NCBI GenBank assembly: GCA_947168885.1
Contig: CAMVNQ010000008.1
Span: 1-64,000 of the forward strand
Source of the DNA: an uncultured Clostridia bacterium
GTDB taxonomy: Bacteria > Bacillota > Clostridia > Oscillospirales > Ruminococcaceae
Reading direction: 5' to 3'
DNA: 64,000 bases
Shown: positions 26,482 to 41,112 of the stretch, in pieces
Layout: the number at the start of each line of letters is the position of its first letter
Numbering within the stretch: position 1 is the first letter of the stretch
Position numbers and translations under genes: made by a program
Notes under the pieces: generated by a model
Seen by the model: only the letters and a program-made list of their open reading frames with translations
The model's database searches: none
Told to the model about the DNA's origin: nothing

Positions 26482-26877
26482 TTATCCTTTCGATTGGGTG
26501 AGAATTATATTGAACAGCTCCTCTATACGCTTGTCCGCACCCGTGAGAGACAGGTAACCGAAAAGTGCTTCGACAGCCGTTGCTTTATGGTATTCGGCGG
26601 AATTGCTCGACTTGGGCGCGTTCAGCCCTGTAGCGTTTCTGCCGCGGCGGAGTATCTCCGCTTCGTCCTCGTCGAGAACGGAGGTGAGTATCTCGAAAGC
26701 TGCCGCCTGAAACGACGCTCTCGCCATTTTCACCGACATATTATGGAGCTCGCCGGACGGTCTGTCGCCGAGCTCGGTGATGTGCCTGCGGACATAAAGC
26801 TCGTACACGCTGTCGCCGTAGAATGCGAGAGTGGTCGGGCTGAGCCGCTTGGCATCGGGTCTTGATAAAATCTTCAT
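26482..26877 (-). CDS. mrnC: Mini-ribonuclease III
   Basis: LSPTTLAFYGDSVYELYVRRHI...RRGRNATGLNAPKSSNSAEYHKATAVEALFGYLSLTG. Confidence 0.93.
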   Translation of the reverse strand: MKILSRPDAKRLSPTTLAFYGDSVYELYVRRHITELGDRPSGELHNMSVKMARASFQAAAFEILTSVLDEDEAEILRRGRNATGLNAPKSSNSAEYHKATAVEALFGYLSLTGADKRIEELFNIILTQSKG

Positions 26878-27182
26878 ATTGCCTTCTAGTGTATGTTTTT
26901 GCGGGTTTAAGCGTCGCCCTGACCTCGTCGATGTCTTCGCTGTTTAAACCAGATGCTTGATTCTGACTTACGGTTTTGTACAGTAGCAACAAAGCCGAAG
27001 AATATATGCAACGCAGAGATGTGCGGATAGGGCAGCCGCCGTTGCAGAGATCCTAAGTCTGTACAAACTGCTGGCGGCTATTGGGTGCAGCGTCACGCTG
27101 CCGCTGGACCCATGCCGTTCCGCGGAGATTCGATACTATCTTACAAAATGGTAAGAAACTGATATGCCAGAGACTTGTGGGT

Positions 27183-28460
27183 TTAATTAACAAAGCTGAA
27201 CTCAAAGTCGAAGATAGAGACAGTATCTTCCTCTTCTATGCCTGCTTCAAGCAGAGCGTCGATGATACCGCTGTAACGCAGCACACGCTGGAAATACTGC
27301 AGGCTTTCATAGTCGTCCATGTTGACGGTAGAAAGTATCGGCGCAAGCCAATCGGCTTCTACTGAGTAGAAGTGCGCGTCCTCTTTCTTTATCGTGAATG
27401 CGTGTTTTTCCTTTGCCTGCTGTTCAAGCTCTTCTATCGTGAGCGGCTTTGCTTCATAGCGCACTATCGGCGGTAGCTTTTCAAGTTCACCCGCTATTGC
27501 CGCGACAAGCTCCTTCGTGCCCTGTGCAGAAGCTGCAGAGATAACAAAGAACGGAAGTCCCTTGTCCGCGATGAATTTGCGGAATTCCTCGATCTGTTCG
27601 GGCGTTGCTATATCCGACTTGTTCGCCGCAACGATCTGCGGACGCTCTGAAAGTTCGGCAGAGAAGCTGGCGAGTTCATGGTTTATCTTCTCGAAGTCGT
27701 CCTTCGGGTCACGGCCTTCGCTTCCCGAAACATCGACAACGTGCACGATAAGTCGGCAGCGTTCGACGTGTCGCAGAAATGCGTGTCCGAGACCGACGCC
27801 TTCGCTCGCGCCCTCGATGAGTCCGGGTATATCTGCCATAACGAACGATTTTTCGTCGTACTTTACAACGCCGAGCACGGGTGTTATCGTTGTGAAGTGA
27901 TAGTTCGCGATCTCCGGTTTTGCAGCGCTTACAACGCTTATAAGGCTTGATTTTCCGACGTTCGGAAATCCCACGAGTCCGACGTCCGCGAGTAACTTAA
28001 GTTCAAGCGTAACGTCGAACTTCTCGCCCGGATAGCCCGGTTTTGCGAAGCGCGGTATCTGGCGCGTCGGGGTCGCGAAGTTCATATTGCCCTTGCCGCC
28101 TTTTCCGCCGCGCGCGACTATCACAGGCTCGTTGTCGGAAACGTCCGCGAGTATGCGTCCCGTTTCGGTGTCTTTGACTACCGTGCCGCGGGGCACTTTT
28201 ATAACGGTGTCGGGAGCGGACTTGCCGGAGCTGCGTCTGCTTCCTCCGGGAGCACCGTTCTGTGCCGTGTATTTTTTCTTGTATCTGAAATCTATCAGCG
28301 TTGATAAACTGTCGTCGGCCTGAAACACGATGTCTCCGCCCTTACCGCCGTTTCCGCCGTCGGGGCCTCCCGCCGCGACGTACTTTTCGCGGTGGAACGA
28401 GACAGCGCCGTTTCCGCCGTCACCAGCTTTTATTGAAATCTTAACTATATCAACAAACAT
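27183..28460 (-). CDS. obg: GTPase Obg/CgtA
   Basis: MFVDIVKISIKAGDGGNGAVSFHREKYVAAGGPDGGNGGKGGDIVF; GFPNVGKSSLISVVSAAKPEIANYHFTT; C-terminal OCT domain. Confidence 0.98.
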   Translation of the reverse strand: MFVDIVKISIKAGDGGNGAVSFHREKYVAAGGPDGGNGGKGGDIVFQADDSLSTLIDFRYKKKYTAQNGAPGGSRRSSGKSAPDTVIKVPRGTVVKDTETGRILADVSDNEPVIVARGGKGGKGNMNFATPTRQIPRFAKPGYPGEKFDVTLELKLLADVGLVGFPNVGKSSLISVVSAAKPEIANYHFTTITPVLGVVKYDEKSFVMADIPGLIEGASEGVGLGHAFLRHVERCRLIVHVVDVSGSEGRDPKDDFEKINHELASFSAELSERPQIVAANKSDIATPEQIEEFRKFIADKGLPFFVISAASAQGTKELVAAIAGELEKLPPIVRYEAKPLTIEELEQQAKEKHAFTIKKEDAHFYSVEADWLAPILSTVNMDDYESLQYFQRVLRYSGIIDALLEAGIEEEDTVSIFDFEFSFVN

Positions 28461-28468
28461 ATATCCTC

Positions 28469-29176
28469 TTATCTGAAAAAGCCCGGTCTTTGTTCTCTCG
28501 AAGCGTCCTTGTTTATAAGCACAGCCTCATCCTCGTGCGCAAGACCGATACGCTCGCGGATTATATTGAACGGTGTTTCGGCGATCCCGTTCGCTTTTGA
28601 CATGGGCGTATGTATGCATCTGAACGTGAACTCGCCCATTTTGGTCTGTATCGTTACGTCAAGACATTTCGGAGCGAACAGAAACCGCCACTCTTCGCTG
28701 TATATCCCGATGATGTAGTCGTACTCGATAGTGAGCGTCTGACCGATCTTTTCGGGGTAAATAACGGTGAACTTCGTTTCATCGGCCTTGAACTTATACG
28801 TCTGCCCGGCGCGCATTGTCGTGATTATGATCAGAAACGCGATCACAGCGATAAGAAGCAGGAATATGCCGAAAGAGATACTCACAACGGCAAGACCGAA
28901 TCCTGCAAGCCCACCGCCTGCCGCAGCATCGCCGGTAAGTCCCTGCCCCGAGATAAAGCCGGTTATAAGCGATGTGAGCTGCGCCGAAGCCATACCGGGG
29001 ACATCCTTCATACGCACAACAACATATACGACGCTTATAACGGTAAGTGCAAAGACGACACCTATCGTGATGAGTCCGGCGAGGATCAGCGTTCTGGTAT
29101 TTTTGTATGCACACTTGAACGCGCCGCCTGTGCTGAAGCCGAAGCGATCCTGTATTTTATCGAATGATGTGTACAT
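28469..29176 (-). CDS. Uncharacterised two-TM membrane protein
   Basis: Hydrophobic segments LILAGLITIGVVFALTVISVVYVVV and FGIFLLLIAVIAFLIIITTM. Confidence 0.8.
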   Translation of the reverse strand: MYTSFDKIQDRFGFSTGGAFKCAYKNTRTLILAGLITIGVVFALTVISVVYVVVRMKDVPGMASAQLTSLITGFISGQGLTGDAAAGGGLAGFGLAVVSISFGIFLLLIAVIAFLIIITTMRAGQTYKFKADETKFTVIYPEKIGQTLTIEYDYIIGIYSEEWRFLFAPKCLDVTIQTKMGEFTFRCIHTPMSKANGIAETPFNIIRERIGLAHEDEAVLINKDASREQRPGFFR

Positions 29177-29238
29177 ATCCCCACTCCCTTATACAAAAGA
29201 AGGACGGAATTTCTCCCGTCCTGTCTTAACTGTTACGC

Positions 29239-29520
29239 TCATTCAGCGGGGTAAACACTTACCTGCTTGCGATCCTTGCCGAGACGCTCATATCTTACCT
29301 GACCGTCGATCTTGGCAAATAATGTATCATCGGAGCCTCTGCCGACATTCTTGCCGGGGTGGATGTGAGTTCCTCTCTGTCTGTAGAGGATATTGCCGGC
29401 GAGAACATACTGTCCGTCAGCTCTCTTTGCGCCGAGGCGCTGAGCGTTGGAGTCTCTGCCGTTCTTAGTGGAGCCCATACCTTTTTTATGAGCGAAGTAC
29501 TGCATACTGATTATTAACAT
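29239..29520 (-). CDS. rpmA: 50S ribosomal protein L27 with N-terminal extension
   Basis: [56 protein letters not shown]. Confidence 0.98.
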
Positions 29521-29536
29521 ATCGATCTTCCTTTCG

Positions 29537-29875
29537 TCATTTACGGGGTCGCATCTCCCGTATGCTTACGTTTATCTTGCCTTTGCTGTCTTTAGCCAAC
29601 AGGTACATATGATTGTGGAATGACGCTATGACCTGTTTTGCGGCGATAGCCATTGCAGAATCGGGATCTTTAAGGACGAGCATTATCTTGTTGCCCTGGT
29701 CTTTAACATCTGCTTTGCAGAAGAGATAGTCCGTAATGGTATTCGCGGTGAGCATAACGGCAGAAGAAACTGCCGCACAAACTATGTCGCGGCCGAAAAC
29801 GCCCGCATCCGCGTGTCCCGAAACGGAGAACCCGACGAGACCTCCGCCGTAGCTTAAAAACTCTGCGTCTATCAT
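29537..29875 (-). CDS. prp: Ribosomal-processing cysteine protease Prp
   Basis: [31 protein letters not shown] (His/Cys motif); located between rplU and rpmA. Confidence 0.93.
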
Positions 29876-29880
29876 TGTGT

Positions 29881-30189
29881 TTACGCGTTGATAGCTTCGA
29901 TCTTTACCTTGCTGTACGGCTGTCTGTGACCCTTAGCCACTTTTTCGCCTTTCTTGGGCTTATAGGTGAATACTCTTACCTTCTTGCCCTTACCGTTCTT
30001 GATGAGTGTTGCCTTTACGGAAGCACCTGATACATAAGGAGCACCTGCGGTGATACCGCTGTCGCTGCCGATGAGGAGGACCTTATCGAATGTAACGTCG
30101 CCTTCTTCAACTCCGAGCTTCTCTACGAAGATCTCGTCGCCCTCTTTTACCTGATACTGCTTTCCGCCTGTTTCAATAATTGCGTACAT
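29881..30189 (-). CDS. rplU: 50S ribosomal protein L21
   Basis: [31 protein letters not shown]...[24 protein letters not shown]. Confidence 0.97.
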
Positions 30190-30300
30190 TTTAATACCTC
30201 GTTTCACGATCTCGCTGCAGCCGGCGCCGTCACCCTATGTGACAGACTTAAAAAGAGCCACCTGCAAGCGGCTTAATTATTTTACCATACCGGGCCCCTT
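30190..30300 (-). ncRNA. Candidate L21 (rplU) leader / structured 5' UTR
   Basis: Intergenic leader before rplU with short inverted repeats (agcc...ggct, tgtcac...gtgac on the minus strand); position fits Firmicutes L21 leaders; not scored with a covariance model. Confidence 0.4.
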
Positions 30301-30525: not shown

Positions 30526-33500
30526 TTATTCTTCCACGGTAAGCTCGCTCTCTGCGACCTTCGTGTCGGTTATCACGAAAAGTTTTCCGTTTCTTATCGC
30601 TGCGCAGAGCACCGATGATTTCTCGTCATAGGTGATATACTCGCCGCACACGGTGAACAGAGTACCGTCCCAGTGCAGCACCACAACACGCTCGACCTCG
30701 GAATATCCGTCGAAGTATATCGTCGGCACCGCGAAAAGCGTTCCGTCTTCGTTTGTTCCGATGAATGTCGGTAGTGTTTCGGCGGGGCTGCTCAGGTATT
30801 TAAGGTTCTCACGAGGGGTCTGCTTGTCAAGCTCGATTATCGAATAAGCGGTTTCTTTAAGTGCGCCGTTGTATTCATACATCGAGATGCGAAGTCCTGC
30901 TCTCTCACCGTCCGGAGCGGGTTCTGCGCGGAGCCCGACAAGATTGTCTCCGGCTTTTATAAGCTTGTCTGTGTAGATGTCTGTTGCCGCGATCTGCGCG
31001 CTTTCGGGGCTGTCGCCGCTCATGGCGAAACCGTAGAGCATCTTCTGACCGCCGTTCTGTTCGGTAACAACGTAAGCTGTGCCGTTATCTGACCATGCTA
31101 CCGAAGCCGCTTTCTCGTCCGGAACGGTCACAGACTTTCCGTTCTTATAAGCACATATCCCGTTTTCGGTCTGACCGATCATGCCGCCCTGTCCGATACA
31201 GTCCGCGCTGAACGCATCTCCCGCATACGCATTTGCGGAAACGATACTGAGATCTTTCGATATTTCCATGCCGTAGGTCGTTCCACCGTCCGGTACGGCA
31301 AGAGTCATCCCCTGTCCGCCGAATTTCACGAAACCGGCGTTTCCGCCGAAAACCGCGAGAGCGTCTCCGCCGACGGTATAGAGTATATTCACGGCGTTAT
31401 GCTTTGCGCCGTCTATTGCGTAAATATCGGACGCGTCTATCTCACAAAGCTTGCCGCTGCTGATGCAGTACGGGTGCTTCGAGACGGACAGACCGCTGTT
31501 GTATGCCTCTGTGTAGCCGTTTACGCTGCCTGCTGTGGCTATAGTGAGCTTTCCGTCAACTATCCCTGCGCCGGTGAATATGCCGCCGACGGAATATTCG
31601 GCTTTCTTCGACATATCCTTGCCGTAAACGAGCACCTGTGTCTCGTAAAGTTCTGTTCCCTTCGTGTCAGCCTTTCCGCAGACGATATACAGGTCGCCGT
31701 CTATCGCGGTGAAAGCGTGCATAAGTGATCCGTCCACACGGGCGGTATCCGCATCTGCTTCTGTTTCTTCTGTCGGTTCTTCCGGAGCGACGGAGTCGTC
31801 GGTGTCAGTATCGACAGTTTCTTCCGCGAGTTCGGCATCCGGCTGCTCGTCCGGCACCTGCTCGCCTATCGGAACGGCGCGGAACGTGCAGTCGTTCTGC
31901 ACCGAATAAATATACGCCGTGTCGTCCGTGAACAGCACGCTTGCGGGGGCTCCGCCGAATACTATGTCCGACGGAAAAGGCTCGGCCGACGCGCGAAGGT
32001 AGCCGATAGTGTCTGCTGCACGTATTTCCGCGGCCTCGTAGCTGCCCGCGCTCATATCGTCGTAGGATGAGAGCTTTGTGAGCGTTGCTTCTTCGGGGAC
32101 GATGTGGTGCTCGGGAACGCTTGTTTCGGTTATTTCGGCAGCGGGAGCCGTCGTTTCCTCGGTAATAGAGGTGTCGTTTGTCTCCGGCTCGTTTCTGTCG
32201 GAAGCGAAAGGCAGGTACTTCATACCCGCACTTCCTGCCGCGAGAAGAACCGCCAGCACTGCGCAAGTGATGATCTTTCCGCGATTCACGCCCTCATAGT
32301 ATTCATTGTCGTCGATGAAATATTCGTTGCCTTTATAGCGCTTTCTTCCTGTGTCCTCATCGCCGAAGCCGCCGTCATCGTCATTTTGCGCGCTCTTGTG
32401 CGGCTTTTCTGCGGGATCATCGTCTTTCGGCTCTGCTGCGGCATCTTCGGCGTGTCTGGGCTGATGCCGTTCTCTCTGGTGCTTTGCGGAAGCGCTGTTA
32501 TCATCGTCCGCGTCGTCCTTGTCGTCGAACGAGAAACTCAGATCGTCCGGCGCATAGCTGTCCATAGCGTCGCTTGCCGCATCGAGCGCAAGTCCGACGT
32601 CCGGGGCGAATCCGGCGGATCCGGAAGGTGCCTGTACGGGCTGCGCCAATCGGCTTATCCTTGGCTCATACGGTTCGGGATCGCGTACCTTCGGCTCATA
32701 AACCTTCACTTCCGAGATCTTTTTAGGCGCGTTCGGCTCAGGTTCGTTCACCTTCGGGGCATACGGCTCAGATTCGACAGCGCGTTCGGCTTCTTCGTCT
32801 GAGACGTTCTCTCCTATTGCGTAATCACTTATTATTTGTGTTACGGACACGCCGTTCTGTATCGGTGATGTGGTGATAGTTTCTTCGCTGTCACTGTTCT
32901 GTTCAAATTCCCGGAGCGGCTCGGCAGCTATCGCTTCGAGTACTTTCACGGCAGTATCGTCTTCCTGCCCGGGATTGTTTTCCTTATAAGCTTCGCCGAA
33001 CTCCGGTACAGCTTCGTCAACGGAAAATCCCTGCTCGTCATCGTTGCCGAGCGACGCAGATGCTTCATCTGTCGCTTCGTAATCCGGTATTATGCCTCCG
33101 GATACCGCATCAAACGGTCTTGTGTCGGAGACTGCCGCAGACTGCGGCGTTTCTAATTCCGTTGTTGCGAAAAGAGCACGATCGTCGTCATCAACGTCCG
33201 CGTCCTCAATGTCTTCGGGCTCATCACGACGGATGTCTATGCGTTCCGGCAAGGACTGCTTACCCGCAGCATTCGCGTTTATTGCGGCGTAGGGATCCAC
33301 CGGTTCGTAATCGTTATCGTCAAAAAGCTCATGCAGCGCGGCATGGCTCATCGGATCCACAGCATCATATCCGTCGTTGCGGGCACCTATCATTGAGCCG
33401 AGATCTATGTCCTTGATCTGCTTTTCCGGATGTCTGCGCTCATTGAGCAGCTTCTGCTGCTCGAATTTTCCGGTAGAATTCCGGAGCTGGAAGTCTGTCT

Positions 33501-34935
33501 CGTCCTCCGCGATCGAGCTTTCCTCAAATGTGAGAGGACGTTCGGGCTTGACCGACTTGTTTATACCTATCGCAAGTTCAAGATCGGTCTTTGGCTTTTC
33601 GCGGCGTTTTCTCCTGTATTTTTCACGGCGTGAACCGTCATACAGTCCCGCACGTTCAAGTGCCAGACGGTTCTCTTCCTTCGCATCGAGTACCTCGCGT
33701 CTTTCCTTTACCGCTGTAAGCAGTTTATAATAGTCGGATTCGGTGAGCGGAGATTCTTCAAGAAGCTCAATCAGGCGCTTTTTCGTAAGGCGCGGATTCT
33801 GCTCTATTTCGCGGTAGGCACTGTTGCTTATGCGGGTATTACCGATAAGACGCAGGAACTCGCGGCCTTTCATCTTTTCGGCGGAAACGACGGCGATAAA
33901 TGTTTCAGCGTTGAGCTTTATGGGTGTTTCTTCCTGTGTTTCTCCGAGTTCGCTGAAAACAAGTTCGTTGTCGTCGATACCGTCATCGGCTTCATCGTTA
34001 TCGTCATAATATTCGGGCTCTTCCTCTGTTTCCTCGTCAAATCCGGGCTTGTCGGAAGGCTCGTTGCCGGCGTTCTTGTCTTCGTCTGTCTCTTCTGCGG
34101 CGATCTTGTCGCCGGACTCGTCCGTGAGAGGCTCGTCATAGGTGAAGGCTGATTCGTCTTCACCTGACTGTTCATCCGGCTCGACAGGCTGTGAGTCAGT
34201 CGGTTCAACGGGCTGTTGCTCTTCGGACTGCTGTTCATCAGGTTGCTGCTCCGTGGGCTGCTGTTCATCCGGCTCGACAGGCTGTGAGTCAGTCGGTTCA
34301 ACGGCCTCTTGCTCTTCGGGCTGCTGCTCCGTAGGCTGTTGTTCAGCAGATAGCTGCTCTGCGGGTTTCTGTTCCTCGGGGGACGGAATATAGCTGGCCG
34401 CGGCTTCGTCGAAGCCGGTGTAACGGTCGCGCAGAGCGTCGGGCGCACGGAAAGTTCCGGCGCTGGCGCAGATGCTGCCGTAAGCTGCGCCGAGGCGCTT
34501 TTTGGCGGAACCGAGCTTGTCGGATATTGTATCTTCCGACATACCGGTAAGCACCGAGATCTCTCTTGCTCCGTAACCGAAAACGCAAGCCATGGAGAAA
34601 ACAAGTCTTTCGACATCTGGCATTTTTCCTGTATCTGCGAAAACACCGTTCGCTGTGTGTGTGATCCCGCTGGCTTTGAACTCCTTCAGTCTGTCCACTG
34701 CGTTCTTCGTGAGTTCGTGAACGAGCCACGAACGCAGGTGACGCTCGTCACGGATACGGGATATGCCTGCGTAACCGTCGTTTATTGCGGATATGACTGC
34801 GGCCTTTGCAGTCTTTTCATCTTTGAGCGCTATTATCGCTGCCGTGTACAGCCCGTCAACCGAGCTCAGGCAAAGCGATTCGTATGCGGCGCGGCTTCCC
34901 GTGCGGGCTCTGTCGAGCTTTTCCTCAAATGTCAT
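30526..34935 (-). CDS. ECF-sigma-like domain fused to acidic linker, one TM and predicted extracellular beta-propeller
   Basis: N-term MTFEEKLDRARTGSRAAYESLCL...(region-2-like) and MPDVERLVFSMACVFGYGAREISVLTGMSEDTISDKLGSAKKRLGAAY (region-4-like); TM GKIITCAVLAVLLAAGSAGMKYLPF; beta-rich C-terminus; SD ccAGGAGatgaaacgATG. Confidence 0.82.
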   Translation of the reverse strand: MTFEEKLDRARTGSRAAYESLCLSSVDGLYTAAIIALKDEKTAKAAVISAINDGYAGISRIRDERHLRSWLVHELTKNAVDRLKEFKASGITHTANGVFADTGKMPDVERLVFSMACVFGYGAREISVLTGMSEDTISDKLGSAKKRLGAAYGSICASAGTFRAPDALRDRYTGFDEAAASYIPSPEEQKPAEQLSAEQQPTEQQPEEQEAVEPTDSQPVEPDEQQPTEQQPDEQQSEEQQPVEPTDSQPVEPDEQSGEDESAFTYDEPLTDESGDKIAAEETDEDKNAGNEPSDKPGFDEETEEEPEYYDDNDEADDGIDDNELVFSELGETQEETPIKLNAETFIAVVSAEKMKGREFLRLIGNTRISNSAYREIEQNPRLTKKRLIELLEESPLTESDYYKLLTAVKERREVLDAKEENRLALERAGLYDGSRREKYRRKRREKPKTDLELAIGINKSVKPERPLTFEESSIAEDETDFQLRNSTGKFEQQKLLNERRHPEKQIKDIDLGSMIGARNDGYDAVDPMSHAALHELFDDNDYEPVDPYAAINANAAGKQSLPERIDIRRDEPEDIEDADVDDDDRALFATTELETPQSAAVSDTRPFDAVSGGIIPDYEATDEASASLGNDDEQGFSVDEAVPEFGEAYKENNPGQEDDTAVKVLEAIAAEPLREFEQNSDSEETITTSPIQNGVSVTQIISDYAIGENVSDEEAERAVESEPYAPKVNEPEPNAPKKISEVKVYEPKVRDPEPYEPRISRLAQPVQAPSGSAGFAPDVGLALDAASDAMDSYAPDDLSFSFDDKDDADDDNSASAKHQRERHQPRHAEDAAAEPKDDDPAEKPHKSAQNDDDGGFGDEDTGRKRYKGNEYFIDDNEYYEGVNRGKIITCAVLAVLLAAGSAGMKYLPFASDRNEPETNDTSITEETTAPAAEITETSVPEHHIVPEEATLTKLSSYDDMSAGSYEAAEIRAADTIGYLRASAEPFPSDIVFGGAPASVLFTDDTAYIYSVQNDCTFRAVPIGEQVPDEQPDAELAEETVDTDTDDSVAPEEPTEETEADADTARVDGSLMHAFTAIDGDLYIVCGKADTKGTELYETQVLVYGKDMSKKAEYSVGGIFTGAGIVDGKLTIATAGSVNGYTEAYNSGLSVSKHPYCISSGKLCEIDASDIYAIDGAKHNAVNILYTVGGDALAVFGGNAGFVKFGGQGMTLAVPDGGTTYGMEISKDLSIVSANAYAGDAFSADCIGQGGMIGQTENGICAYKNGKSVTVPDEKAASVAWSDNGTAYVVTEQNGGQKMLYGFAMSGDSPESAQIAATDIYTDKLIKAGDNLVGLRAEPAPDGERAGLRISMYEYNGALKETAYSIIELDKQTPRENLKYLSSPAETLPTFIGTNEDGTLFAVPTIYFDGYSEVERVVVLHWDGTLFTVCGEYITYDEKSSVLCAAIRNGKLFVITDTKVAESELTVEE
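34168..34354. repeat. 93-bp direct repeat in linker-coding sequence
   Basis: ctgttcatccggctcgacaggctgtgagtcagtcggttcaacgg starts at 34168 and at 34261; encodes the EPTDSQPVEPDEQ... unit. Confidence 0.85.
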
Positions 34936-35138
34936 CGTTTCATCTCCTGGGTATATGGGTCGGCAGAATGCCGGATAATTCATAATACAGCCAATAACGG
35001 CCGAAAAATATCAATAACTATATTATTATATCACAGTTTACGCAAAAAGAAAAGATATTTTTTCAAAAAAACACATTTTTCGGGTCACGAAGCATCGGTA
35101 AGAACATAAAACGGTATATAATCATATAATGGAAAAAA

Positions 35139-35321: not shown

Positions 35322-36365
35322 TTATCGGGCACCTTCGTTTTTAAGGACATCATCGAGTTCCTCGATGAGCACAAGCTCAAACCGGTTCTCGCCGGCGCTT
35401 GCGGTCTTATACGCCCTGTCGAGGTAATACCGTGCCTTCTGCGGGTCATGCAGCACCGCGTAACAGTAGTATGCAAGCGCTCGTTTAGTTCCCGCGCCGG
35501 TATCTGTCGCGAGAGCAGTTCCCGCCTTGTCATAGAATTTTCTTGCGTACTCCTCGTCGGGCTCAAGCCATGAATAATAGTATATCAGCATGGCATAGGA
35601 ATTGACGCAGTTACGCATGAATTCCCCCGAACGCAGTATATCGGTAAGCTTATGCATCGGCTCGGGCAGTCTTTCGGCCTGTCCGCTCGCAAGCAGATGC
35701 GTACCGTAATAATACAGATACGTTACAGTATCCGTCGTCGAAGGCTCGTCGGGAAACTGCATCTCATCAAGCGGACGCAGATCCAGTCCCGCGGGATCGG
35801 CACCGTTTTCGAGTGCCCTTGTTATCTGCTGCACATATCCTCCGAGAGTATTCTTTTCGCCCGCGGCAGAACGGATAAGCGCTACAACGTCACCCATCAC
35901 AGCAAAATACGAGATAATGCATAAGAATGCCGCGAAGACAGCCCAGTCCGTGTCCGGCTCGAACGAAAGCTCATCCGGCGGCGGAGCAGCCAATATCGCC
36001 TCCCACGCGGGCAGCGACAGCACCGTTATTATAACCGACAGAAACGTTTTTGCAAGCAGCCTGCACAGTATAAAACGCGTATGCGACGCGCTGGGATCCG
36101 TGCTGCCGTTTCCGGTAAACGTGTATCTCACGAACGGCGCATATTTGTCGTCACCTTTGAGCCAGCGTCCGTTCACGCGCCTGAACGAGAAAAAGCCGAC
36201 CGTGATCTTGTCACATTCAAGTCCGAACATCGGGAGCACAAAGAGAAGGAACAATATGTGCAGACCCTCGAACATAACAAGTCCCAGCAGAACGCCGAGC
36301 AGAATATACAGGATCTTCCCGTTAATTATTGAATAGATCAGCGCCCTTGCGCTTCTGAACCTCAT
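35322..36365 (-). CDS. Uncharacterised membrane protein
   Basis: Several TM segments, then a soluble helical C-terminus (possible TPR-like). Confidence 0.78.
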   Translation of the reverse strand: MRFRSARALIYSIINGKILYILLGVLLGLVMFEGLHILFLLFVLPMFGLECDKITVGFFSFRRVNGRWLKGDDKYAPFVRYTFTGNGSTDPSASHTRFILCRLLAKTFLSVIITVLSLPAWEAILAAPPPDELSFEPDTDWAVFAAFLCIISYFAVMGDVVALIRSAAGEKNTLGGYVQQITRALENGADPAGLDLRPLDEMQFPDEPSTTDTVTYLYYYGTHLLASGQAERLPEPMHKLTDILRSGEFMRNCVNSYAMLIYYYSWLEPDEEYARKFYDKAGTALATDTGAGTKRALAYYCYAVLHDPQKARYYLDRAYKTASAGENRFELVLIEELDDVLKNEGAR

Positions 36366-37843: not shown

Positions 37844-37994
37844 TGTAGTAAATAGAATTTACACAACGATCCATTATCCTTTGCTGGACCGGCGGACCGG
37901 AAAGCGGCAGTCTGTTCCCTCTCCCGCTTCGGCGAGCGAGAGAACAGAAAGCATATCTGTACGGCCTCCGCTTAATAAGAAAGGAAGTGTTTAT

Positions 37995-38720
37995 ATGGAA
38001 TGGTTCACAGAATGGTGGGGCAGCCTTGATACAATGAGCCAGGTGCTCTTCTGCGTTGCGCTTCCCTCAACGGTTATACTGCTTATCCAGACTATAATGA
38101 TAATACTCGGTTTCGGCCATGACGGAGCCGGTGTGAACCCGAGCGACACCTCGGGCTTTGACGGAAGTACGGACATCGACATAAGCACAGACGTGGATAT
38201 AAGTCTTGATGCCGACGGATCGGGAGCAGACATTGATTCTTCCGGCGGAACGGAGTTCGAGACCGATGTTACCGACGTGAATTACGGTGACGGAAGCAGC
38301 CACGGCGACATCGGAACGATGAACTTTTTCACCGTCCAGGGCGTGATCACATTCTTCTGCGTTTTCGGCTGGGCGGCTCTTGTTACATACACGCTGTCGA
38401 AGATCGCAGTGCTTGCTGTAATAGTAGGACTTGTGCTCGGACTCGCGGCTATGTTCGGTGTGGCCAAGATACTTCAGCTCTCGAAGAAGCTCGCACAGAA
38501 CGGCACGCTGAATATCCGCAATCTCCTCGGCGCTTCCGGAACGGTTTATCTTGTGATACCCGCGGACGGCGAGGGAAAAGGAAAGGTAAACGTTACGAGC
38601 GGCGAAAGGCTTGTTGAGTTCGACGCGATAACCGACGAAAAAGAATCTCTTCCCGACGGAACTTCCGTAAGAGTGGTTGATATTCGCAGCGGCAATGTCC
38701 TTGTTGTCGAGAAAGTGTGA
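37995..38720 (+). CDS. NfeD-like membrane protein with C-terminal OB-fold-like domain
   Basis: TM segments plus LLGASGTVYLVIPADGEGKGKVNVTSGERLVEFDAITDEKESLPDGTSVRVVDIRSGNVLVVEKV; two genes upstream of flotillin. Confidence 0.75.
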   Translation: MEWFTEWWGSLDTMSQVLFCVALPSTVILLIQTIMIILGFGHDGAGVNPSDTSGFDGSTDIDISTDVDISLDADGSGADIDSSGGTEFETDVTDVNYGDGSSHGDIGTMNFFTVQGVITFFCVFGWAALVTYTLSKIAVLAVIVGLVLGLAAMFGVAKILQLSKKLAQNGTLNIRNLLGASGTVYLVIPADGEGKGKVNVTSGERLVEFDAITDEKESLPDGTSVRVVDIRSGNVLVVEKV

Positions 38721-38729
38721 CGGTGCTGT

Positions 38730-39287
38730 ATGGAATCAATTGATCTTCTTTTCTGGGGGTTTATTGCACTTGTCGTTGTCGGCGGTATCGTCTGTCTGCT
38801 AGTGTTTCTTCCGAAGGAACATGACTATGAGGACAACAAGAACGATTGTTACCGCATACAATACCGCGACGGAAACTACACGGTGTCGAAGAAGAAGCCG
38901 TCATACGGCGAGAACCGGTACTCTCTTCGTTCAAAATTCTTCTATATAAAGAAGATACCGTTTGAGATCGACGCGTTCTGCGATGAGGGAGAAGCTCCGG
39001 ACGGCAAAAGCTACCGGGCAGTCACATCGGTGAAGATGTGTTTCCCCGAAGACAGGCTTCAGACATTCGCGCCGACATTCCACGGCGTTTCTCATGAGAG
39101 TATCACCGAAACGATCGAAGAAGCTCTCGCGGCGGCAATGAAGGACGCTATCGCGAAATATGACGCGGCGGCTGGCGAGGAAGCTTTCAGGGAAGTGTTC
39201 AAGGAATGCGCTCAGAAAAAGCTTGATATCTTCGGACTGTACATAATGGCGGTCGGGAATATCAGAATAAACGAGAATGCAGTATGA
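38730..39287 (+). CDS. Uncharacterised membrane protein in NfeD/flotillin operon
   Basis: N-terminal TM, soluble domain; stop overlaps next ATG (ATGA at 39284). Confidence 0.8.
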   Translation: MESIDLLFWGFIALVVVGGIVCLLVFLPKEHDYEDNKNDCYRIQYRDGNYTVSKKKPSYGENRYSLRSKFFYIKKIPFEIDAFCDEGEAPDGKSYRAVTSVKMCFPEDRLQTFAPTFHGVSHESITETIEEALAAAMKDAIAKYDAAAGEEAFREVFKECAQKKLDIFGLYIMAVGNIRINENAV

Positions 39288-39465
39288 TCGGTATGATAAA
39301 GATGAGCGACAAATGCCAAAAACAGTATGATTTCGCTGAAAAGAAATGCCCGTCTGCGGTAAAAAGCTGAAGAAAGCATATACCAAAGAAGAAACGGAAA
39401 AAATAAAAAAGAAGAAGAGGACACAATGGCCGTCCTCAACACGATGTTTTTTATGTAAACCTTGA
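39284..39465 (+). pseudogene. Apparently frameshifted small zinc-ribbon protein
   Basis: MIGMIKMSDKCQKQYDFAEKKCP then frame shift into VCGKKLKKAYTKEETEKIKKKKRTQWPSSTRCFLCKP*; break at about 39345-39357. Confidence 0.5.
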
Positions 39466-39498
39466 GACGCTGTCTCATTGAAATAAGGAGGAATTATT

Positions 39499-41112
39499 AT
39501 GGATCCTATCATCATTACCGCGATAGTTGTCGGCGCAATAGTTGTTTTCGCCCTTTTCGCGGGAATACTTTCACGTTACCGCAAATGCCCGTCCGACAAG
39601 ATACTCGTTATCTACGGTAAAGTCGGAAGCGACAAAAGCGGTCAGGCAAGAAGCGCACGATGCATCCACGGCGGCGCGGCGTTCATAGTACCTATCATTC
39701 AGTCTTATCAGTACATGGACCTTACGCCTATCTCGATCAACGTCGATCTGCGCAACGCACTTTCAAAGCAGAATATCCGTGTTGATGTACCGTCGAGCTT
39801 TACGGTCGGCATCTCTACGGAGCCCGGTGTAATGCAGAATGCGGCAGAGAGACTCCTCGGCCTCAAGATGGGTCAGGTTCAGGAGCTTGCGAAGGATATA
39901 ATCTTCGGTCAGCTTCGTCTCGTAATCGCAACAATGGAGATCGAGGAAATAAACACCGACCGTGACAAGTTCCTTATCGCGGTATCGAAGAACGTTGAGA
40001 TAGAACTCCGCAAGATCGGTCTTCGTCTCATCAACGTAAACGTAACCGATATCCGTGACGAGTCCGGATATATCGAGGCTCTTGGTAAGGAAGCTGCTGC
40101 GAAGGCTATCAACGACGCGAAGAAATCCGTTGCTGAAAAGAACCGTGACGGTGCTATCGGTGAAGCTAATGCGAACCGTGACCAGCGTATCCAGGTAGCT
40201 GCTGCGAACGCAAGCGCTATCGACGGTGAAAACGCTGCGAAGGTAGAGATCGCACAGTCCGAGGCGTCAAGAAGATTCCGCGAGGCGGAAGCTGACGCAA
40301 AGGCACAGAACAACGCGAAGATCGCTATAGCGCAGACCGGCAGAGACGGTGAGATCGGACAGGCGAACGCTATGCGCGAACAGCGTGTCGAAGTCGCAGC
40401 CGCAAACGCGAAGGCTGTTGAGGGTGAAAACGCCGCGAAGATCGCAGTTGCTCAGTCAGACGCTATGAGACGTGAAAAGGAAGCGGAAGCGTTAAAGCTC
40501 GCTACCGCAGCAGAAGCTGTACAGGCTGCAAAAGCGCGTGAGGAAGCTTACGCTGCTCAGAAGGTAGCAGAGCAGGAGCGTGCACAGCTCGAAATGGCTA
40601 CCCAGCAGGCTGACGTTATCGTAAAGGCTCAGATCGCCAAGGAACAGGCACAGATCGCAGCAGAGGCAGAAGCGGAAGTAATGCGCCGCAAGGCAAAGGG
40701 TGAAGCGGACGCTATATTCGCGAAAATGGAAGCGCAGGCAAACGGTATGCGTGAGATACTCCAGAAGCAGGCAGAAGGTATGCGTGAACTCGTCAATACG
40801 GCGGGTACGGCTGATGATGCTGTAAAACTCATACTCGCGGACAAGATGGAAGACCTTATGCGCATTCAGGTCGATGCTATCAAGAACATAAAGATAGACA
40901 AGGTAACAGTCTGGGACGGCGGCTCAAAAGGCAAGGACGGCAAAAGTTCGACCGCAGATTTCATAAGCGGTCTGTTCAAGTCGGTTCCTCCGCTTGGTGA
41001 GATGTTCGATCAGGCGGGAATGAAGCTTCCTGAGTACCTCGGTTCTCCGATAGAGATGCCGAAGGAGACGATAGCCGAAAGCACAAAAACAGAGAATACA
41101 GACGAGCTGTAA
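39499..41112 (+). CDS. floT: Flotillin-like protein
   Basis: Band-7 domain (DKILVIYGKVGSDKSGQARSARCIHGGAAFIVPIIQSYQYMDLTPISINVDL...) plus Ala/Glu-rich coiled coil. Confidence 0.93.
   Translation: MDPIIITAIVVGAIVVFALFAGILSRYRKCPSDKILVIYGKVGSDKSGQARSARCIHGGAAFIVPIIQSYQYMDLTPISINVDLRNALSKQNIRVDVPSSFTVGISTEPGVMQNAAERLLGLKMGQVQELAKDIIFGQLRLVIATMEIEEINTDRDKFLIAVSKNVEIELRKIGLRLINVNVTDIRDESGYIEALGKEAAAKAINDAKKSVAEKNRDGAIGEANANRDQRIQVAAANASAIDGENAAKVEIAQSEASRRFREAEADAKAQNNAKIAIAQTGRDGEIGQANAMREQRVEVAAANAKAVEGENAAKIAVAQSDAMRREKEAEALKLATAAEAVQAAKAREEAYAAQKVAEQERAQLEMATQQADVIVKAQIAKEQAQIAAEAEAEVMRRKAKGEADAIFAKMEAQANGMREILQKQAEGMRELVNTAGTADDAVKLILADKMEDLMRIQVDAIKNIKIDKVTVWDGGSKGKDGKSSTADFISGLFKSVPPLGEMFDQAGMKLPEYLGSPIEMPKETIAESTKTENTDEL

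Follow-up and report, generated by a model that had tools for sequence, protein, structure and literature searches.

A sigma-like domain joined to a transmembrane helix and a beta-propeller in one protein of uncultured Clostridia: a candidate receptor with a repurposed sigma fold

Mimicry of sigma factors is best known from PhyR, and fused sigma/anti-sigma proteins are known from a handful of examples. The sigma-like domain of PhyR has degenerate promoter and RNA polymerase (RNAP) regions and titrates an anti-sigma factor (PMC8103513). IutY of Pseudomonas putida (ECF243) carries both sigma and anti-sigma on a single polypeptide (PMC5411451), and among other extracytoplasmic function (ECF) sigma factors, ECF52 (SCO4117), ECF48, ECF53 and ECF36 are fused to membrane parts and ECF57 carries a WD40-like extension (PMC8999054). 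In this study, we examine a gene in a 64,000-nucleotide stretch of DNA (the window) from an uncultured Clostridia bacterium of the Ruminococcaceae (contig CAMVNQ010000008.1, positions 1 to 64,000). The encoded protein is a single chain that joins a sigma-like domain, acidic linkers, a single transmembrane (TM) helix and a beta-propeller, as a preliminary description of the window had outlined; between the linkers lies a helical domain that we call mid. We consider it likely, with a probability of about 0.68, that this is a single-pass, receptor-like membrane protein whose sigma-like part is a repurposed docking or mimic module derived from a sigma/membrane-partner pair.

The gene is one open reading frame (ORF) on the minus strand, open from 34983 to 30526 (1485 codons); residue numbers of the domains refer to this 1485-residue frame, and all domain coordinates lie on the minus strand. 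The sigma-like (pseudo-sigma) domain comprises residues 17-186 (34426-34935) and consists of sigma2 and sigma4 helices without sigma3, as in ECF (group 4) sigma factors; the linker that joins them is very short. The ECF-like character already read from its N-terminus was borne out by profile searches: the domain matched TIGR02954 of NCBIfam at 4.5e-9, and a family profile compared with the PDB matched SigW at 7.5e-13, plus many other ECF sigma factors. As a single sequence it matched Sigma70_r4_2 of Pfam at 1.1e-5, just under the Pfam cut-off. These profile matches indicate that the domain shares common descent with ECF sigma factors.

The AlphaFold2 (AF2) model of the domain has a predicted local distance difference test score (pLDDT) of about 95-98. 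Its best Foldseek matches were SigW in SigW/RsiW complexes (template modelling score, TM-score, on the target 0.74-0.78; probability 1.00), followed by CnrH/CnrY; the TM-score was 0.61 to the PhyR sigma-like domain (2lfw) and only 0.35, on the target, to RNAP-bound SigH. The predicted compact shape thus resembles anti-sigma-bound ECF sigma factors and PhyR, unlike RNAP-bound SigH, and about seven non-helical residues (model residues 90-96) separate the sigma2 and sigma4 halves. The whole model that contains this domain has an overall predicted template modelling score (pTM) of 0.52 and about 190 disordered residues. It gave no Foldseek match below an E-value of 0.001, a result that we ascribe to how much of it is disordered, though its top matches were ECF sigma factors.

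The residues by which a sigma factor engages RNAP and the promoter were compared by aligning 30 family members, including a few near-identical pairs, with a control set of 20 real ECF sigma factors encoded in the same genome. Within the motif of region 2.2, ..ED(I/L)xQE.F, we examined the positions taken to correspond to D403, Q406 and E407 of sigma70. An acidic residue at the D403-equivalent is present in 10 of the 30 family members versus all 20 real ECFs, glutamine at the Q406-equivalent in 3/30 versus 12/20, and an acidic residue at the E407-equivalent in 3/30 versus 17/20. Measured between identical landmarks, sigma2 and sigma4 lie 25-33 residues apart in the family and 40-60 in the real ECFs, with no overlap. 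A long linker between these domains lets both of them reach core RNAP and promoter. The net charge of the recognition helix ranges from -3 to +2 in the family (+1 in the protein studied here) as opposed to +2 to +4 in the real ECFs. In sigma factors, the clamp helices of RNAP are bound by regions 2.1 and 2.2 (PMC7406223). By this comparison little is left in the family of the region 2.2 contacts to the beta-prime clamp helices, of the positively charged recognition helix or of the long linker between sigma2 and sigma4, and the sigma-like domain no longer appears able to act as a sigma factor.

The preliminary description had left the choice between a tethered sigma released by proteolysis and a repurposed sigma fold, and it is the latter that the contact residues, helix charge and linker length favor; the loss of contact residues, which that description had named as refuting an active sigma, is extensive across the family but not total. 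One alternative is a true, if divergent, ECF sigma factor that its own anti-sigma region keeps at the membrane until regulated proteolysis frees it, in the manner of IutY and ECF52 (SCO4117). It would have the same order of sigma, one TM helix and outer domain as IutY, whose sigma is freed by Prc and RseP (PMC8999054, PMC5411451). The genome encodes an M50 site-2 protease, and region 4 of the fused clade is still helix-turn-helix-like. This explanation would nonetheless have to accommodate family-wide loss of contact residues, recognition-helix charge and linker length, and a predicted linker of about seven residues that seems too short to span both RNAP sites. Pfam recognized no anti-sigma domain in the protein, and genomes without the sigma-like gene retain a conserved mid, TM and propeller protein. 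Release of a functional sigma, the initial hypothesis, was abandoned once contact residues, helix charge and linker length had been compared, and we regard it as improbable.

The arrangement of the sigma-like gene and the part encoding mid, TM helix and propeller was inspected at 63 loci of the genus. Many of the relatives' genomes are metagenome assemblies, and the named loci are labeled as Ruminiclostridium, Ruminococcus, Ruminococcaceae and uncultured Clostridia. The search for orthologues of the same architecture yielded an in-frame fused form in 17 genomes (17/63 loci), the studied one included. At 25 loci the form is split, with the sigma-like gene directly upstream of the mid, TM and propeller gene on the same strand, and at the remaining 21 no sigma-like part was seen, several of these loci being cut by contig ends. 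In a maximum-likelihood tree of the mid, TM and propeller part (57 rows), all fused forms fall in one fully supported clade, all sigma-less forms in another single clade, and the split forms in two. A single fusion plus a single loss (or a single gain, if the root is placed elsewhere) therefore suffices to account for the distribution. One further row of the fused clade (G004), in which the mid part starts at a contig end and the sigma-like part ends another contig, is probably fused as well.

Comparison with three fused relatives gave ratios of nonsynonymous to synonymous substitution rates (dN/dS) of 0.08-0.11 for the sigma-like domain and 0.03-0.07 for mid, rough values given that dS is near saturation. 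Across the main fused clade the sigma-like domain retains 53-77% sequence identity, falling to about 40% for the deepest members of that clade, and the linkers are far less conserved than either domain. On these estimates the sigma-like domain is under strong purifying selection and is not a relic. Matches of the domain to sigma models are weak and the fusion happened once, as might be expected of a leftover sigma pseudogene joined to its neighbor by loss of a stop codon, or of an assembly artefact. Such an origin is very hard to reconcile with an in-frame fusion in 17 genomes, a dN/dS near 0.1 and the degree of identity retained, and decay and artefact were both rejected on the fusions and dN/dS.

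The region behind the sigma-like domain, previously described as one acidic linker of some 800 residues, is indeed acidic in large part but is interrupted by mid and so forms two linkers. The first, rich in Pro, Glu and Gln, covers residues 187-352 (33928-34425) as judged from sequence, alignment and the AF2 model; it has a net charge of -54 over residues 186-350 and is predicted to be disordered after about residue 205. The second, of low conservation, covers residues 461-870 (32374-33603) and is 43% identical to the nearest relative. Mid itself (residues 353-460; 33604-33927) has five predicted helices and, after them, a basic stretch, and is the best conserved piece of the protein, with 92% identity and a dN/dS of 0.03 to the nearest relative. 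It spans about 80-110 residues, its helical core folds at an AF2 pLDDT of about 91-98, and it has no convincing match in Pfam, NCBIfam or the PDB. Of the 71 genomes examined in the genus, 65 encode mid (39 among the 41 of high quality), practically one copy in each, and within an order-wide sample it is confined to this genus, 1 of 126 genera.

A role for mid as a dedicated anti-sigma domain was considered but found no support, as mid matches no known domain and is conserved also where the sigma-like domain is absent; it is therefore not clearly sigma-binding. The same conservation bears on another form of repurposing, in which the sigma-like domain serves as an intramolecular or subunit partner that holds mid or the linker and has no outside target. 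The sigma-like domain is encoded beside, and later fused to, the mid-domain protein, and the whole-model pTM is slightly above what might be expected for independently placed mid and sigma domains, both of which would suit such a role. Against it, a single position of mid (E39 to K) tracks absence of the sigma-like domain, and the relative placement of the two domains in the AF2 model is tentative. We consider a purely internal partner rather unlikely.

The single TM helix that had been proposed is located at about residues 903-921 (32221-32277), and each of the 57 relatives scanned has a TM-like hydrophobic stretch that separates mid from the propeller. It is preceded by a juxtamembrane stretch, residues 871-902 (32278-32373), with a motif conserved among relatives (KRYKGNEYFIDDNEYYEGVNRG). 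The C-terminal part, about residues 976-1485 (30529-32058), was modeled by AF2 as a beta-propeller (mean pLDDT 88.3, pTM 0.87), in keeping with its first description, and Foldseek returned mostly propellers at low TM-scores. The studied protein itself has no match to the PF09826 (Beta_propel) profile; 10 of 25 aligned family members do, the best at 2.9e-30, and judged through these homologues the outer part is probably a PF09826-type propeller. Weak matches of propeller and mid to unrelated families were taken as chance. The most likely translation product has 1469 residues and starts at the ATG at 34935 (residue 17 of the frame). This start, the one given in the preliminary description, is preferred because a Shine-Dalgarno sequence, AGGAGA (34943-34948, minus strand), lies 7 nucleotides upstream and because the fused relatives align from the same MTF/MNF.

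A pair that may represent the kind of ancestor from which the family arose was found at locus L172 (594-3000), from a distant genome within the class. There, the gene of a real ECF sigma factor whose DADDILQEVF motif is intact runs into the beginning of a gene encoding a TM segment and PF09826 domain; this is one case and no proof of descent. Most PF09826 proteins sampled in the class start with a signal-peptide-like stretch, and beside most of them no sigma factor was present in the short flanks examined. The L172 pair also raises PF09826 as a possible anti-sigma sensor domain.

Several other genes lie close to the fused gene or its relatives. A gene for an HD-domain protein (161-175 residues, PF01966) follows the membrane protein gene, within tens of bases or overlapping it, in nine loci of one split clade only (L054, 4704-5186; L058, 4749-5237; and downstream in L051, L065, L066, L070, L073, L076 and L078). 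In the window, a 347-residue membrane protein (35322-36365) directly upstream of the fused gene has no Pfam match and is kept in the nearest relative at 70% identity. Adjoining NfeD-like and flotillin-like genes (37881-41112, plus strand) recur close to the fused gene at loci L001 and L004. On the same strand as the fused gene lies a ribosomal-protein/ObgE-like cluster (26482-30207: rplU, a Prp-like protease, ObgE and a Mini-III-like RNase), a proximity not seen in the relatives examined. Nothing found in this analysis links the CPBP proteases of the window to the fused gene.

The degenerate sigma property shared with PhyR and the layout shared with IutY and ECF52 lead us to propose a receptor with a docking or mimic sigma-like domain. 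Such a protein would have originated from an ECF-sigma/membrane-partner gene pair whose sigma lost its RNAP and promoter contacts yet remained under selection; in one clade the two genes would then have merged. The cytoplasmic arm would present two folded modules, the sigma-like domain and the genus-specific helical mid domain. At the cell surface the propeller may act as a sensor, its state may be relayed inward by the TM helix together with the juxtamembrane motif, and the sigma-like domain might bind or release a cytoplasmic partner, as PhyR does with NepR.

Several observations weigh against this receptor proposal. The acidic residue at the D403-equivalent is retained in a third of the family members, the 10 noted above, and a recognizable region 4 helix-turn-helix persists in the fused clade. 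Mid stays conserved without the sigma-like domain, and any contact between the two is putative. In the neighborhoods no partner was found and no gene is common to all clades, and the orientation that places the propeller outside derives from the type of outer domain. A more specific form of the proposal, a strict PhyR-like switch in which, once the propeller is triggered, an anti-sigma belonging to another ECF of the genome is titrated by the sigma-like domain, draws on the degenerate domain that PhyR itself uses, on the 33 sigma-70 region 2 matches in the genome, which make many anti-sigmas likely, and on the predicted compact form, which matches anti-sigma-bound ECFs and the PhyR domain. Since the protein has no receiver domain and no conserved ECF or anti-sigma neighbor, and PhyR is known from Alphaproteobacteria, we hold this strict form to be unlikely. 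More novel is the suggestion, tentative and itself somewhat doubtful, of a second, independent case of sigma mimicry, in Firmicutes and within a membrane receptor, where a captive pseudo-sigma would change partners at the membrane under the control of an outside propeller and a cytoplasmic domain not seen before is added.

The single-chain layout and the idea of a sensor joined through a TM helix to a sigma fold are supported, and the receptor proposal gains interest from the distribution of the family. One genus displays two-gene, one-gene and sigma-less states, which makes it possible to trace and test how a sigma/membrane-partner pair could become a one-piece receptor. Automated counts of ECF sigma factors may also include domains that no longer start transcription.

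Compared with described systems, the protein shares with IutY a sigma domain, a single TM helix and an outer regulatory domain in one polypeptide. The sigma of IutY is active after cleavage by Prc and RseP, whereas here the RNAP and DNA determinants are largely lost and a mid domain and an outer beta-propeller are added. Like ECF36, ECF48, ECF52, ECF53 and ECF57, it combines an ECF fold with membrane-spanning segments and a domain of extracytoplasmic or repeat type; the sigma parts of those groups are taken to be functional, and the zinc-finger anti-sigma domain of ECF48, ECF52 and ECF53 is not recognized in it. With the PF09826 proteins of Clostridia it probably shares the propeller family, via homologues, and L172 offers a possible ancestral type of pair, although most of those sampled have a signal-peptide-like start and no sigma found alongside. 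PhyR is comparable in its ECF fold with degenerate RNAP and promoter regions and in the predicted compact form. PhyR, however, belongs to the response regulators and has a receiver domain, for which the studied ORF has no Pfam match; here the putative mimic is part of a membrane-bound propeller protein, and among solved structures its closest relative in profile comparison is SigW.

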